NCBI GenBank assembly: GCA_014193315.1
Contig: BJHS01000003.1
Span: forward strand, 62,001 to 126,000
DNA length: 64,000 nucleotides
Source of the DNA: Verrucomicrobiota bacterium
GTDB lineage: Bacteria; Verrucomicrobiota; Verrucomicrobiia; Opitutales; UBA953
Direction: 5' to 3'
The position numbers and the translations under genes were made by a program. Under the pieces are notes generated by a model. The model worked only from the letters and a program-made list of their open reading frames with translations, had not been told where the DNA came from and did no database searches. Positions within the stretch are counted from its first letter, which is position 1. Each line of letters begins with the position of its first letter. Positions 10,330 through 50,451 of the stretch are shown piece by piece.

Positions 10330-10330
10330 G

Positions 10331-10576
10331 GGCAGTAGGGAGTAAGTAGTGGGTGATAGGGAGTGGGGAGTCGGGAATCGGTGTTGGGGATTGGGAACAG
10401 GGTGCTGCCCCTACCTAGGCCCCTACCTGAACGGGGCCTTCGGCAACGGGGTCAGGCACGCCATCGCTACGCAAGGCGAAGCCAGACCCCCGCCTCGCCC
10501 ACTCCCTGCCATCTACTCCCCACTCCCTACTCCCTAATTCCTAATTCCCAATTCCCAACACCTCACCCGTCATCCC
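10331..10576. repeat. Seven-base periodic spacer island, two arms on opposite strands
   Basis: The 300-bp gap between prmC and proS holds ten consecutive heptads at 10331-10400 (GGCAGTA, GGGAGTA, AGTAGTG, GGTGATA, GGGAGTG, GGGAGTC, GGGAATC, GGTGTTG, GGGATTG, GGAACAG). Eleven heptads at 10500-10576 use the same vocabulary on the other strand (CACTCCC, TACTCCC, TAATTCC, CAATTCC, CAACACC). The middle has two GTAGGGG heads read on the minus strand (10406-10425). The order of words is not mirrored, so it is not a simple hairpin. Confidence 0.75.
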
Positions 10577-23629: not shown

Positions 23630-24108
23630 GGAAGGGGTTGCAGGCGCCGGACTGCCCGCCGGAAGATGCCGCGGAAGATCCAGTAGATCGGCAGGATGAT
23701 GAAGGGCGCCGCCACGATCCAACCGAGTAGCCCGTGCAGCCCCGCCTGTCCATAGTGATGGAAGGCCTGCCCCGGGTCCTCGCCGAAGGCGACGACCATC
23801 GCGCCGATGTGGAGGTCGGCGGGGTCGGCGGCGGTGAGCCGTTCGCCGAGGCGCACGAACGGGAGGATCAGGAGCAACTGCAGCGGGGCGGCGAAGACGT
23901 TGATCGTCTGCAGGATGACGTGGTTAAGCCGGAGGAGCCAGCCGGCGAGGAAGCAGAGCACGGTGGCCGTGCCCAGGAAGGGAGAGACGCAGAGGAACAG
24001 GCCCACCGCGCCCGCCAAGGCCAAGCCCTCGGGGCTGACGCCTTTGAGGAGCTCGGCCCGGAGCGGGTCGCGCACCTTGCGGCGCAGCCAATCCCCGGTC
24101 CGGCTCAT
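23626..24108 (-). CDS. DUF2062 membrane protein
   Basis: 160 residues. A basic N-terminus (WLRRKVRDPLRAELLKG) is followed by the DUF2062 pattern: a helix ending in GLFLCVSPFLGTATVLCF, then LRLNHVILQTINVFAAPLQ, and two further helices. Function is unknown; the family often sits beside glycosyltransferases or lipid genes. It overlaps both neighbours by 4 bp, so the three genes are one translational unit. Confidence 0.85.
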   Translation of the reverse strand: MSRTGDWLRRKVRDPLRAELLKGVSPEGLALAGAVGLFLCVSPFLGTATVLCFLAGWLLRLNHVILQTINVFAAPLQLLLILPFVRLGERLTAADPADLHIGAMVVAFGEDPGQAFHHYGQAGLHGLLGWIVAAPFIILPIYWIFRGIFRRAVRRLQPLP

Positions 24109-24488
24109 GCAGCGGGCTGGCGCGTAAAGAAGATTGCCGCCGGGTCCGCGGAGGTGGAGGCCCGCAGGCAGAGCAGGGCATAGGCCGCGATGGCGAAATT
24201 ACCTAGGAGCATCAAGGCGACGAACCAGCCGAGGCGAGCGGTGACCGTGCGCTCCCGCCAAGCGACGTAGAGCCAGAAGGCGAGGAAGCCGAAGTAGGCG
24301 TCGAACATCGTGGCCAGGCCCCACGGCTCGGCGCACACGGTGACATAGCCCCCGAGGACGTTCAGGGCTTTGCCGGTGTAAGCCGGCAGGGTGCTCGTCG
24401 AGGGATTGACGCAGGCCTGCCAGGACACCCAGGTCATGGCGGCGAGCACGAGGACGAAGTAGAGGGCGAGAGCGCGGCGGGAGGTCAT
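24105..24488 (-). CDS. Small four-helix membrane protein, DUF1475-like
   Basis: 127 residues from ATG at 24488, with hydrophobic segments near 8-22, 45-52, 60-75 and 88-108. The core PWGLATMFDAYFGFLAFWLY followed by VAWRERT resembles the DUF1475 pattern I recall mainly from plants (PW-ATL-D-Y---LALWV-YKE). Function is unknown. It is the first gene of the overlapping trio with DUF2062 and DUF1295. A longer upstream frame through the repeat island is not real. Confidence 0.72.
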   Translation of the reverse strand: MTSRRALALYFVLVLAAMTWVSWQACVNPSTSTLPAYTGKALNVLGGYVTVCAEPWGLATMFDAYFGFLAFWLYVAWRERTVTARLGWFVALMLLGNFAIAAYALLCLRASTSADPAAIFFTRQPAA

Positions 24489-24547
24489 GGGGTGAGGATG
24501 AGGGAAAGGCGGGGAAAGGCAAATGGGGGAGGCGGGGATAGGGCTAG

Positions 24548-24771
24548 GGACGGAGTACAGAGTGCGGGGTACAGAGGACAGAGTACAGAGTACAGAGTGC
24601 AGAGGACGGAGTACGGAGTGCGGAGGGTGGGGTGGTGGATTCGGATTATAATAGGGAATGGGTGGGGAGATTTTCTTATCCGTACTTCGTCCTTTGCGCT
24701 CCGTCCTCATCACTTCCCCTTGTCCACGTGTCCCCGTGCCCACGTGTCCCCTCGCGAGGCTTCGCCTCGCG
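24548..24771. repeat. Eleven-heptad array with opposite-strand heptads and octamers
   Basis: The 284-bp gap between two minus-strand genes holds eleven uninterrupted heptads (24548-24624): GGACGGA, GTACAGA, GTGCGGG, GTACAGA, GGACAGA, GTACAGA, GTACAGA, GTGCAGA, GGACGGA, GTACGGA, GTGCGGA. An AT-rich core (GATTATAATAGG) follows. Opposite-strand heptads TCCGTAC, TTCGTCC, TTTGCGC, TCCGTCC lie at 24679-24706, and octamers CCTTGTCC, ACGTGTCC, CCGTGCCC, ACGTGTCC at 24718-24749. A hairpin CGCGAGGC-TTC-GCCTCGCG (24753-24771) ends it beside the cfa stop. Confidence 0.85.
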
Positions 24772-24772
24772 C

Positions 24773-25984
24773 TCAACCCTTCCGATTCGGACGCACGTAG
24801 ACAGCCTGGACGACCCCGATGTTGCGGTGCACGAAGGCCGCCTGGCAGTAGCGGAAATAGAGGCGCCACTTACGGATGAAACGCTCGTCGAAGCCCATCG
24901 CGCGGATGGCGTCGAGCTTGGTCTCGAAGGTCTGGCACCAGGCGTCGAGGGTCCGGGCGTAATCGAGGCCGAATTCCTCGAGGCGCTCCAACTGGAAGCC
25001 GCTTTCCGAGGTCATCAACGCGCCGACGCGGTTGATCGAGAGCAGGAGCGAGCCGGGGAAGATGTGCTTCTGGATGAAGTCCACCCCGTCGCGGAACTGC
25101 GCGTAACGGCTGTCCGGGCAGGTGATGTACTGGAAAGCGGCGATGCCGTCCGGCTTGAGCAGGCGGCCGATGGAGGCGCAGAAGGACGGCAGGTACTTGT
25201 CGCCGAGGGCTTCCATCATCTCGATGGAGACGCACTTGTCGTAGATGCCTTGGTGGTCGCGGAAGTCCTCGAGCTTGACGGTGATGCGGTCCGACAGGCC
25301 GGCGGCCTTGATGCGCTCGACGGCCAGGTCGTGCTGGGCCTGCGAGATGGTGAGCGAGGTGACGCGGCAGCCGTGGTGCTTCACCGCGTGCAGGGCCCAG
25401 CCGCCCCAGCCGGTGCCGATCTCGATGACGTGGTCGGTGGGCTTCAGCTGCAGGAACCGGCAGAGGGATTCGTTCTTGTTGGCCTGGGCCTGCTCGAGCG
25501 TCGCCGCGCCTGCCCAGCGGGCGGACGAGTACATCATCGACGGGTCCAGCCAGAGGCGGAAGAAATCGTTGGAGACGTCGTAGTGCTCCGAGATGTTGCG
25601 GCGGACGGTCTTCTTGTCGTTCGGCCGCAGGAGGTGGCCGAGGCGGTCGGCGATCCGGAACAGGCCGACGCCGAGGGCCTTGCGGGCCGAGCCAGACATG
25701 CCCGGGGTCTGGTCGATGTTCTCGATGAAGAAGCCGATGAGGGCGTTAAGGTCCTGCGAATGCCACTCACCTTCCATGTAGCCCTCGGTCAGCCCGATGT
25801 CCGCCGCGAGCATGATGCGGCGGAAGGCGTTCTCGTCGCCGATCTCGAGGCGGGCCCCGCCGGTGGCCGCGGGGTCGCCGAAGACGAGCTCCGCGCCCTC
25901 GGGCAGACGGAGCATGAGCCGACCCCGGCGGAGTTTCGCCAGCTCGTTCAGGACGAGGCGACGGGCGAGGGAAGGCTGGCTCAT
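24773..25984 (-). CDS. cfa: Cyclopropane-fatty-acyl-phospholipid synthase
   Basis: 403 residues. NISEHYDVSNDFFRLWLDPSM and MYSSARW are the substrate-proximal signature. The SAM site is IEIGTGWGGWALHAVKHHGC. SIEMMEALG and the C-terminal FQLERLEEFGLDYARTLDAW complete the CFA pattern. It adds a methylene (or methyl) from SAM across unsaturated phospholipid acyl chains at the membrane. It overlaps the DUF1365 gene by 4 bp; this pair with an FAD oxidoreductase is a recurrent bacterial cluster. Confidence 0.94.
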   Translation of the reverse strand: MSQPSLARRLVLNELAKLRRGRLMLRLPEGAELVFGDPAATGGARLEIGDENAFRRIMLAADIGLTEGYMEGEWHSQDLNALIGFFIENIDQTPGMSGSARKALGVGLFRIADRLGHLLRPNDKKTVRRNISEHYDVSNDFFRLWLDPSMMYSSARWAGAATLEQAQANKNESLCRFLQLKPTDHVIEIGTGWGGWALHAVKHHGCRVTSLTISQAQHDLAVERIKAAGLSDRITVKLEDFRDHQGIYDKCVSIEMMEALGDKYLPSFCASIGRLLKPDGIAAFQYITCPDSRYAQFRDGVDFIQKHIFPGSLLLSINRVGALMTSESGFQLERLEEFGLDYARTLDAWCQTFETKLDAIRAMGFDERFIRKWRLYFRYCQAAFVHRNIGVVQAVYVRPNRKG

Positions 25985-38443: not shown

Positions 38444-39457
38444 ATGCCCCGCTTACCACTACTGGTCACGATGCTCGGACTGACCTTGTCCGGGGCCGAG
38501 CCCGCGGCGGAGCCTTTCCGTAAGGTCGGGATTGTCGGGCTCGATACCTCGCATGTCGTGGCGTTCACCCAGACCCTGAACCGCGGCCCGAAGGTGGCCG
38601 CCGACGCCCCGAAGTTCGCGGGTTTCCGCGTCGTCGCGGCGTTCCCCCAGGGGGGCCGCGACATCGCCGCCAGCGTCGAGCGCGTGCCGGAGTACACGGC
38701 CAAGCTCCGCGCGCTCGGGGTTGAGATCGTGCCGTCGATTGAGGCGCTCTGTGCCAAGGTCGACTTCGTCTTGCTGGAGTCGAATGACGGTCGCGTCCAC
38801 TTGGAGCAATTGAAGCCCATCCTGCGCGCCCGGAAGCCGGTCTTCGTCGATAAGCCGATCGCGGGCTCGCTCGGGGATGTCCTGCGCATGCAGGCGCTCG
38901 CCCGCGACGCGGGGGTCCCTCTGTTCTGCTCCTCGTCGCTGCGCTTCGGGGCTGGCACGGTCGCGGTCCATGGTGGTTCCCTTGGCGTGGTTCGCGAGGC
39001 GACGACCTTTAGTCCGGTACACCTCGAGCCCACGCACCCCGACCTTTATTGGTACGGTGTCCATGGCTGCGAAAGCCTCTACACGGTCATGGGGACAGGC
39101 TGCCGTTCTGTGCGGCGCGGTTTGACCGAGGACGGTAAGATCGAGGTGGTGGGCGATTGGGGGGATGGCCGAAAGGGTGTCTTTCAGGAAGAGAATGGCA
39201 AAGCCCGCAAGGGATACGGCGGGATCGCGCGCGGCCCGAAGGGCGAGGCCATCGTCGGCACCTACGATGGCTACGACCCGCTGCTCGCGGAGGTGGTTGC
39301 CTTCTTCCGCACCGGTCGAGCCCCGGTCTCCGCCGAGGAGACACTCGAGCTTTACACCTTCATGTCCGCCGCCGACGAGAGCAAGCGGCAGGGCGGCGCC
39401 GAGGTCAGGCTCGCCGACGTCCTCGCCCGCGCGAAAGCAGAAGTCGCGGGGCGCTAG
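38444..39457 (+). CDS. Secreted Gfo/Idh/MocA-family oxidoreductase
   Basis: 337 residues with a signal peptide (about 1-18). The Rossmann start VGIVGLDTSHVVAFTQTL lacks the classic GxGxxG. LESNDGRVHLEQLKPILRAR and KPVFVDKPIAGSL carry the conserved EKP-like Lys (here DKP), and YWYGVHGCESLYTVMG the substrate-side His. These proteins use NAD(P) to oxidise sugars, often exported in Verrucomicrobiota and Planctomycetota. The substrate is unknown. A nested palindrome begins at its stop codon. Confidence 0.85.
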   Translation: MPRLPLLVTMLGLTLSGAEPAAEPFRKVGIVGLDTSHVVAFTQTLNRGPKVAADAPKFAGFRVVAAFPQGGRDIAASVERVPEYTAKLRALGVEIVPSIEALCAKVDFVLLESNDGRVHLEQLKPILRARKPVFVDKPIAGSLGDVLRMQALARDAGVPLFCSSSLRFGAGTVAVHGGSLGVVREATTFSPVHLEPTHPDLYWYGVHGCESLYTVMGTGCRSVRRGLTEDGKIEVVGDWGDGRKGVFQEENGKARKGYGGIARGPKGEAIVGTYDGYDPLLAEVVAFFRTGRAPVSAEETLELYTFMSAADESKRQGGAEVRLADVLARAKAEVAGR

Positions 39458-39579
39458 GGAAGCAAAGGGGTCAGGGAAGCAAAGGGGTCAGGCCGTTAGT
39501 CGGGCCCCCTGTTAGTTTAAACGGCCAAAATCGGCCTCTAAACTAACAGGCTAGACGACGAACGGCCTGACCCCTTTGC
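39456..39579. repeat. Tandem 17-mers leading into a nested 100-bp palindrome
   Basis: Two exact tandem copies of AGGGAAGCAAAGGGGTC (39456-39472, 39473-39489) lead into a palindrome with three nested stems. The outer stem is 19 bp (39479-39497 with 39561-39579, ending CCTGACCCCTTTGC). The middle stem is 12 bp (CCTGTTAGTTTA at 39508-39519 with TAAACTAACAGG at 39539-39550). The inner stem is GGCC/GGCC. It fills the gap between convergent genes and looks like a MITE or REP-type hairpin element. Confidence 0.85.
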
Positions 39580-50387: not shown

Positions 50388-50412
50388 GTCGGCACGCAGT
50401 GCCGACCCTACC
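50387..50412 (-). repeat. REP-like palindrome between bioA and bioB
   Basis: GGTCGGCAC (50387-50395), loop GCA, GTGCCGACC (50399-50407), then CTACC. On the minus strand this is a GGTAG head followed by a 9-bp stem and 3-nt loop, the same geometry as the array at 54662-54948. It overlaps the last base of the bioA stop. Confidence 0.7.
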
Positions 50413-50416
50413 TTTC

Positions 50417-50451
50417 CCCGATACTCGATACTCTAAACTCCATACTCTATC
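50417..50451. repeat. Five heptads forming the bioB leader
   Basis: CCCGATA, CTCGATA, CTCTAAA, CTCCATA, CTCTATC run without a break to 3 bp before the bioB ATG. They leave no purine-rich ribosome site. Confidence 0.65.

Follow-up and report, generated by a model that had tools for sequence, protein, structure and literature searches.

The 284-nt spacer at positions 24489-24772 of the window (the whole 64,000-nt stretch of DNA that was analyzed) belongs to a family of simple-sequence arrays, unit GAGTACR, that is dispersed among the intergenic regions of the genome. Tandem 7-nt units beyond chance, dispersed intergenic copies and changes in unit number among close relatives, the marks of an intergenic heptad simple-sequence array, were all found.

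Anatomy of the spacer and its repeat family

The spacer separates a gene encoding a CMAS-type (cfa-like) methyltransferase (24773-25984; Pfam PF02353, E 3.9e-76) from a small DUF1475-like gene (24105-24488; below the Pfam cut-off), both on the minus strand. Its G-strand arm (24548-24624, plus strand), supported by TRF, shuffles and a detector score of 106.8, comprised 11 degenerate heptads, GAGTACR in another rotation, reading GGACGGA GTACAGA GTGCGGG GTACAGA GGACAGA GTACAGA GTACAGA GTGCAGA GGACGGA GTACGGA GTGCGGA. A core (24625-24678), the AT-richest portion of the spacer, separated this arm from a C-strand arm on the minus strand (24679-24706; detector score 28.1), whose four heptads, TCCGTAC TTCGTCC TTTGCGC TCCGTCC, drew on the vocabulary of the G-strand arm and paired with it in both RNA and DNA folds. 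Four minus-strand octamers (24718-24749), supported by TRF and by relatives, read CCTTGTCC ACGTGTCC CCGTGCCC ACGTGTCC, the reverse complement of the GTGGACAA/GTGGGCAC/GGGGACAC type. The left edge of the spacer (24489-24547, plus strand) was G-rich with hexad-like words (GGGATAGGGCTAGGG), and a separate GC-rich stem-loop, GCGAGGC-TTC-GCCTCGC (24753-24771), found in some relatives as well, lay directly downstream of cfa. No Rfam match reached the gathering score anywhere in the window.

An earlier note on this DNA had placed 11 heptads, four inverted heptads and four octamers here, and TRF recovered the same arrays at exactly these positions. The form it proposed, G[GT][AG]C[AG]G[AG], fitted 11/11 heptads of the G-strand arm; that the opposite-strand heptads share this vocabulary held strictly, as reverse complements, for 2/4, while the remaining 2/4 were off by 1-2 bases. 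Its exclusion of codon structure as the cause was upheld, and a coding explanation of the heptads was rejected, since no gene lies over the cfa/DUF1475-like spacer. GAGTACR is stop-free in every frame, hence long spurious ORFs cross the arrays.

Across the 284-nt spacer, the best lag-7 run scored 31.5, compared with a mean of 4.3 and a maximum of 9 across 1000 dinucleotide shuffles; the 77-nt array alone scored 30.5, where 2000 shuffles reached at most 13.5. In the spacer, the octamers produced further peaks at lags 8 and 16. Chance periodicity in a skewed spacer, the outcome the earlier note had set against its own reading, therefore has next to nothing in its favor and was rejected: 0/1000 shuffles approached the observed score, the phase recurred in other spacers and in relatives, and a genome-wide search with a pattern of three heptads, one mismatch allowed, returned 46 matches versus 1 for the reversed pattern used as control.

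These 46 matches grouped into ~16 sites, almost all intergenic. Using a detector built on GAGTRCR, which was nearly silent on reversed sequence, paired arms were found at most sites of this genome; many sites had a single arm. Among the elements in the window were another paired array, of GGGAGTA/GGGAATT-type heptads, G strand first and C strand second (10330-10560), and a lone C-strand arm of the GAGTACR family, called by the detector on the minus strand 6 nt ahead of a start codon (50422-50448). Across the examined loci, which were mostly picked for arrays, spacers held 5.6 word arrays per kb and coding sequence 0.06. Outside the repeat words, the sites of this genome shared no sequence with the query spacer, and nearly all other matches were array-only.

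Further word families were present in the window and related loci, including hexads (AGGGCT type), other heptads (GCGGTTR, GGGARTA) and octamers (GTTGGCCA and GTGGGCAC types). The GCGGTTR family occurred in 35/41 genomes and was abundant in many that lack GAGTACR; lineages thus differ in vocabulary. A further recurring element of spacers, a hairpin whose stem varies and which GTAGGG and CCCTACC delimit (e.g., GGTCGGCACGCAGTGCCGACCCTACC), was seen in the L082 spacer, in L228 and L008, and at 50388-50420 of the window. A 17-mer tandem copy (AGGGAAGCAAAGGGGTC) occupied a gene end at 39456-39492 of the window, with the inverse CCTGACCCCTTTGCC ~75 bp later. A 6S RNA gene (Rfam RF00013) at L042:1317-1480 was highly conserved between G000 and G014, and a heptad array started directly past its T-tract.

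Arm polarity, folding and turnover of units

Where opposite-strand arms lay within 300 bp of each other, the G strand came first without exception, 10:0 in this genome and 8:0 in the relative G014 (p = 7.6e-6). Of 61 arms, 50 also had as their closer neighbor the gene lying 5' of the G strand (p = 4.6e-7), and this bias held both where that gene ends (28/34) and where it starts (22/27); the G strand thus points away from the adjoining gene, whichever it is. Non-GAGTACR tandem arrays followed the G-then-C order 12:2 and a broader word scan of all families 40:8, most exceptions falling in long spacers that string one G...C unit after another. The L237 spacer of G014 was nested, running GCGGTTR, AGGGCT, heptads, AGGGCT type and GCGGTTR. 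Sites between divergent genes numbered 3/39 versus 8/23 window spacers (Fisher p = 0.013), the baseline of 23 spacers being small, drawn from one window only and inclusive of array spacers. Purine loading of all spacers was rejected as the cause of the polarity: within the window it was a weak signal, 0.57 at one edge and 0.55 at the other, and came from the long word-bearing spacers. GAGTACR has no GGG tract and no G4 motif occurred in the detected arms of this genome; quadruplex formation consequently cannot cause the geometry here.

The spacer folded with z scores of -3.8 as RNA and -3.2 as DNA, so the RNA folding that the earlier note thought possible is real as a potential. A search for intrinsic terminators (stem-loop plus T tract) gave 0 sites on either strand. 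The two arms of a site lacked arm-to-arm register. Complementarity within sites equaled that across sites both in this genome together with G014 (9258/20000 permutations as high) and in Clostridium hydrogenum (8617/20000). The one significant set pools species whose vocabularies differ, and this would account for it. Since arms match no better within than across sites, they share a vocabulary, not copied sequence. The templated growth that the earlier note had entertained was not borne out in the sense of one arm copying the other, and arm copying via a hairpin was rejected. Given the unmatched arms, the many one-armed sites and the lack of a T-tract, we take the hairpin potential to be a consequence of the shared vocabulary.

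Comparison of the orthologous cfa spacer among relatives, a check the earlier note had named, revealed that the arrays vary. In G014 (98% cfa identity) both arms were present with fewer heptads and different words; in G010 (88%) the left side held G-rich hexads and the right side octamers, and in G006 (69%) there were octamers only. In G009 and G017, which carry arrays elsewhere, the cfa spacer was ~25 nt with no array. The octamer block by cfa comprised four units in G000, G014, G007, G015 and G006, at a near-constant distance from the gene; unlike the fast-changing heptads, this block (24718-24749; L075, L076, L081, L082, L087) was stable across 69-98% cfa identity.

Seven orthologous G014 sites retained arrays, with 7-nt gains and losses and altered words, and substitutions in orthologous arrays fell mainly at unit positions 5 and 7. 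Position 7 was A in C. hydrogenum, G in Thiohalocapsa and both in this genus; these differences were large, and such within-unit preferences lean on a detector made for that unit. The proposal of slippage followed by drift was partly supported. Adjacent heptads were more alike than permuted ones genus-wide (2/1000 permutations as high), the rare variant unit GAGTAAG was repeated in six consecutive copies in L234 of a relative, and heptad numbers changed; against this, the adjacency effect was small, did not reach significance when this genome was taken by itself and was missing from C. hydrogenum. G014 also contained second-place copies of two spacer segments with their arrays, one of 175 bp (L240:4008-4181 versus L040:1424-1596) and one of 127 bp (L237:2575-2701 versus L034:1470-1595), at 87-91% identity; one was inverted, across the same gene.

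Distribution in the genus, the phylum and beyond

The GAGTRCR array was found in 10/37 genomes of the genus, with 9 to 111 matches each, and in none of the remaining 27, nor in 20 genomes of other families within the order. Across the phylum, 7/388 genomes contained an exact match, and among the matches listed, GTAC words occurred only in this genome. Six array genomes formed one clade on a recA tree and this genome fell elsewhere, a split that implies at least two changes on a tree of one gene with several weak forks. Array sites common to both lineages included L066/L039, L183/L043 and L161/L234, among others, and may be old sites in which the words were replaced, or else spacers that are preferred.

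Y1_Tnp (the RAYT transposase) was absent from the array-bearing G000, G023 and G026, whereas many genomes free of arrays had it; its presence being uncorrelated with arrays, it was rejected as their driver. SbcD exceeded its curated cut-off in 0/41 genomes, whereas 8/14 control genomes passed. Loss of the SbcCD hairpin nuclease was accordingly rejected as an on/off switch: with SbcD below cut-off in 41/41 genomes, its absence could be permissive but cannot explain patchiness. Ku was likewise absent from 41/41 genomes.

Beyond the phylum, an exact four-unit scan of GTDB genomes returned at least 118 stretches. Among the matches listed were C. hydrogenum and other Clostridia, Thiohalocapsa, Photorhabdus, Bacteroidota, Omnitrophota, Chloroflexota, Spirochaetales, Planctomycetota, Myxococcota and Opitutae. 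Misbinning may affect some of the MAG contigs, a doubt from which the isolates C. hydrogenum, Thiohalocapsa and Photorhabdus are free. At 80 examined loci from named genomes of several phyla, the arms followed the G-then-C order 63:4, including 32:0 in C. hydrogenum; in one of the four exceptions, a complete G...C unit was copied in tandem. In C. hydrogenum L105, L116 and L134, arms adjoined cores with further stem-loops (e.g., TTTTCTGC...GCAGAAAA) and a GAAGGATGATTT inverted repeat, and whole spacers of this species resembled nested hairpins.

Known heptad repeats and the origin of the arrays

Arrays of this kind are already known from Xanthomonas and Nostoc. The GGGAATC and GGGGA(C/T)T heptads of these bacteria are degenerate 7-nt tandem units, mostly intergenic, with ~70 convergent plus/minus pairs per Xanthomonas genome; the G strand lies near the ORF on its 5' side irrespective of ORF direction, few sites are divergent, and gene pairs remain constant among relatives while array length and sequence vary (PMC4692102). 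Quadruplex formation is the property proposed for them, with polarity discussed alongside (PMC4692102). GAGTACR arrays are similarly paired and convergent, with the G strand by the ORF on its 5' side, but they have no quadruplex G tracts, are patchy within one genus and recur in many phyla. TAACTGA direct repeats of Beggiatoaceae, cyanobacteria and Bacteroidetes are also spacer heptads, patchy across unrelated phyla, whose copy number shifts by 7 nt between close strains; in the BOGUAY genome most lie immediately ahead of start codons and share one direction, with only one inverted set reported (PMC4679880). GAGTACR arrays resemble these in their spacer location, patchiness across phyla and 7-nt copy changes, and differ in sequence, in occupying gene 3' and 5' ends alike and in their head-to-head arms. 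In Mrazek's 2007 survey of long simple sequence repeats and in work on cyanobacterial STRR, as cited in later papers, heptads are the commonest long-unit class and polymerase slippage is proposed; those citations describe neither GAGTACR nor paired polarity (PMC4679880, PMC4692102). The heptanucleotide elements of Geobacter metallireducens are multicopy, consist of four or five tandem heptads and are proposed to be regulatory; unlike GAGTACR arrays, their units are GGACCGG and MTYCTGA, their unit number is fixed and one class is also intragenic (PMC2700814). A literature search for the literal GAGTACR unit, judged by titles and abstracts, found no repeat report. Two things are new: a Xanthomonas-like geometry in arrays that lack G-quadruplex words, and the occurrence of identical words in different phyla.

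The explanation we favor, and regard as reasonably probable, is that these are arrays of the STRR or long-simple-sequence-repeat type that grow by unit duplication and point mutation and are tolerated in spacers, their hairpin potential being a by-product. A site consists of one or two arms, the two set head to head with the G-rich strand reading away from each flanking gene. Arrays would gain and lose whole units by replication slippage, point mutation would drift them at preferred unit positions, and a whole spacer segment would at times be copied elsewhere. They may persist because spacers tolerate them, and the long imperfect hairpin that paired arms can form, in DNA or RNA, is probably not selected base by base. 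We infer that slippage is the motor and that the arrays have no sequence-specific function. Slippage accounts for turnover, not for polarity, pairing or shared words; the clustering of opposite-strand arms within spacers, their fixed polarity and the presence of GAGTACR in Clostridium, Thiohalocapsa, Bacteroidota, Omnitrophota and other groups speak against slippage alone.

An RNA-level element, in which paired arms act as a bidirectional 3'-end hairpin (transcript end, mRNA stabilizer or leader element) selected in long spacers, seems to us unlikely, even with the strong fold, the rarity of sites between divergent genes and the retention of arrays between the same genes in relatives. Such hairpins have no T-tract terminator, though an ordinary T-tract follows 6S RNA in this genome; many sites are one-armed, arms are not co-adapted within sites, two array-bearing relatives do without an array in their short cfa spacer, and hairpin selection alone gives no preference for G-first over C-first. 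Insertion of whole units by a mobile miniature element (REP/REPIN/MITE type) is improbable. The arrays are indeed dispersed, intergenic and hairpin-forming, and two whole segments were copied in G014, but apart from those copies the sites have no common ends and, beyond the repeat words, nothing in common with the query spacer, and Y1_Tnp does not track them. The fixed G-outward polarity would follow directly if GAGTACR were added by template to broken 3' ends that were then joined, yielding head-to-head arrays like fused telomeres. Such addition would also account for arms that are independent yet share a vocabulary, for sites with a single arm and for geometry that ignores gene direction, and other word families mostly keep the same order. 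We nevertheless consider it very improbable: Ku-dependent joining was rejected, so that joining of extended ends would need another route, no candidate gene was found, the likeness of neighboring units suggests duplication in place, and we know of no bacterial activity that adds such repeats to DNA ends.

In its boldest form, which we rate a long shot, bacteria of several phyla would possess an activity that adds repeats from a short template of its own, writing G-strand words onto 3' ends at spacer breaks; head-to-head arrays would be the scars of joined ends, and a change of template would switch the vocabulary. If true, the words written would be GAGTACR in some lineages and GCGGTTR, GGGARTA or 6- or 8-mers in others.

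For decades, heptad arrays have been recorded in the spacers of bacteria with no cause assigned to them. The paired outward-G geometry is more general than quadruplexes: the Xanthomonas polarity rule holds equally for a unit unable to form them, and the rule therefore needs another explanation. The all-or-none pattern within the genus, with a six-species array clade beside array-free species, offers a comparison in which to seek the responsible gene, if there is one.
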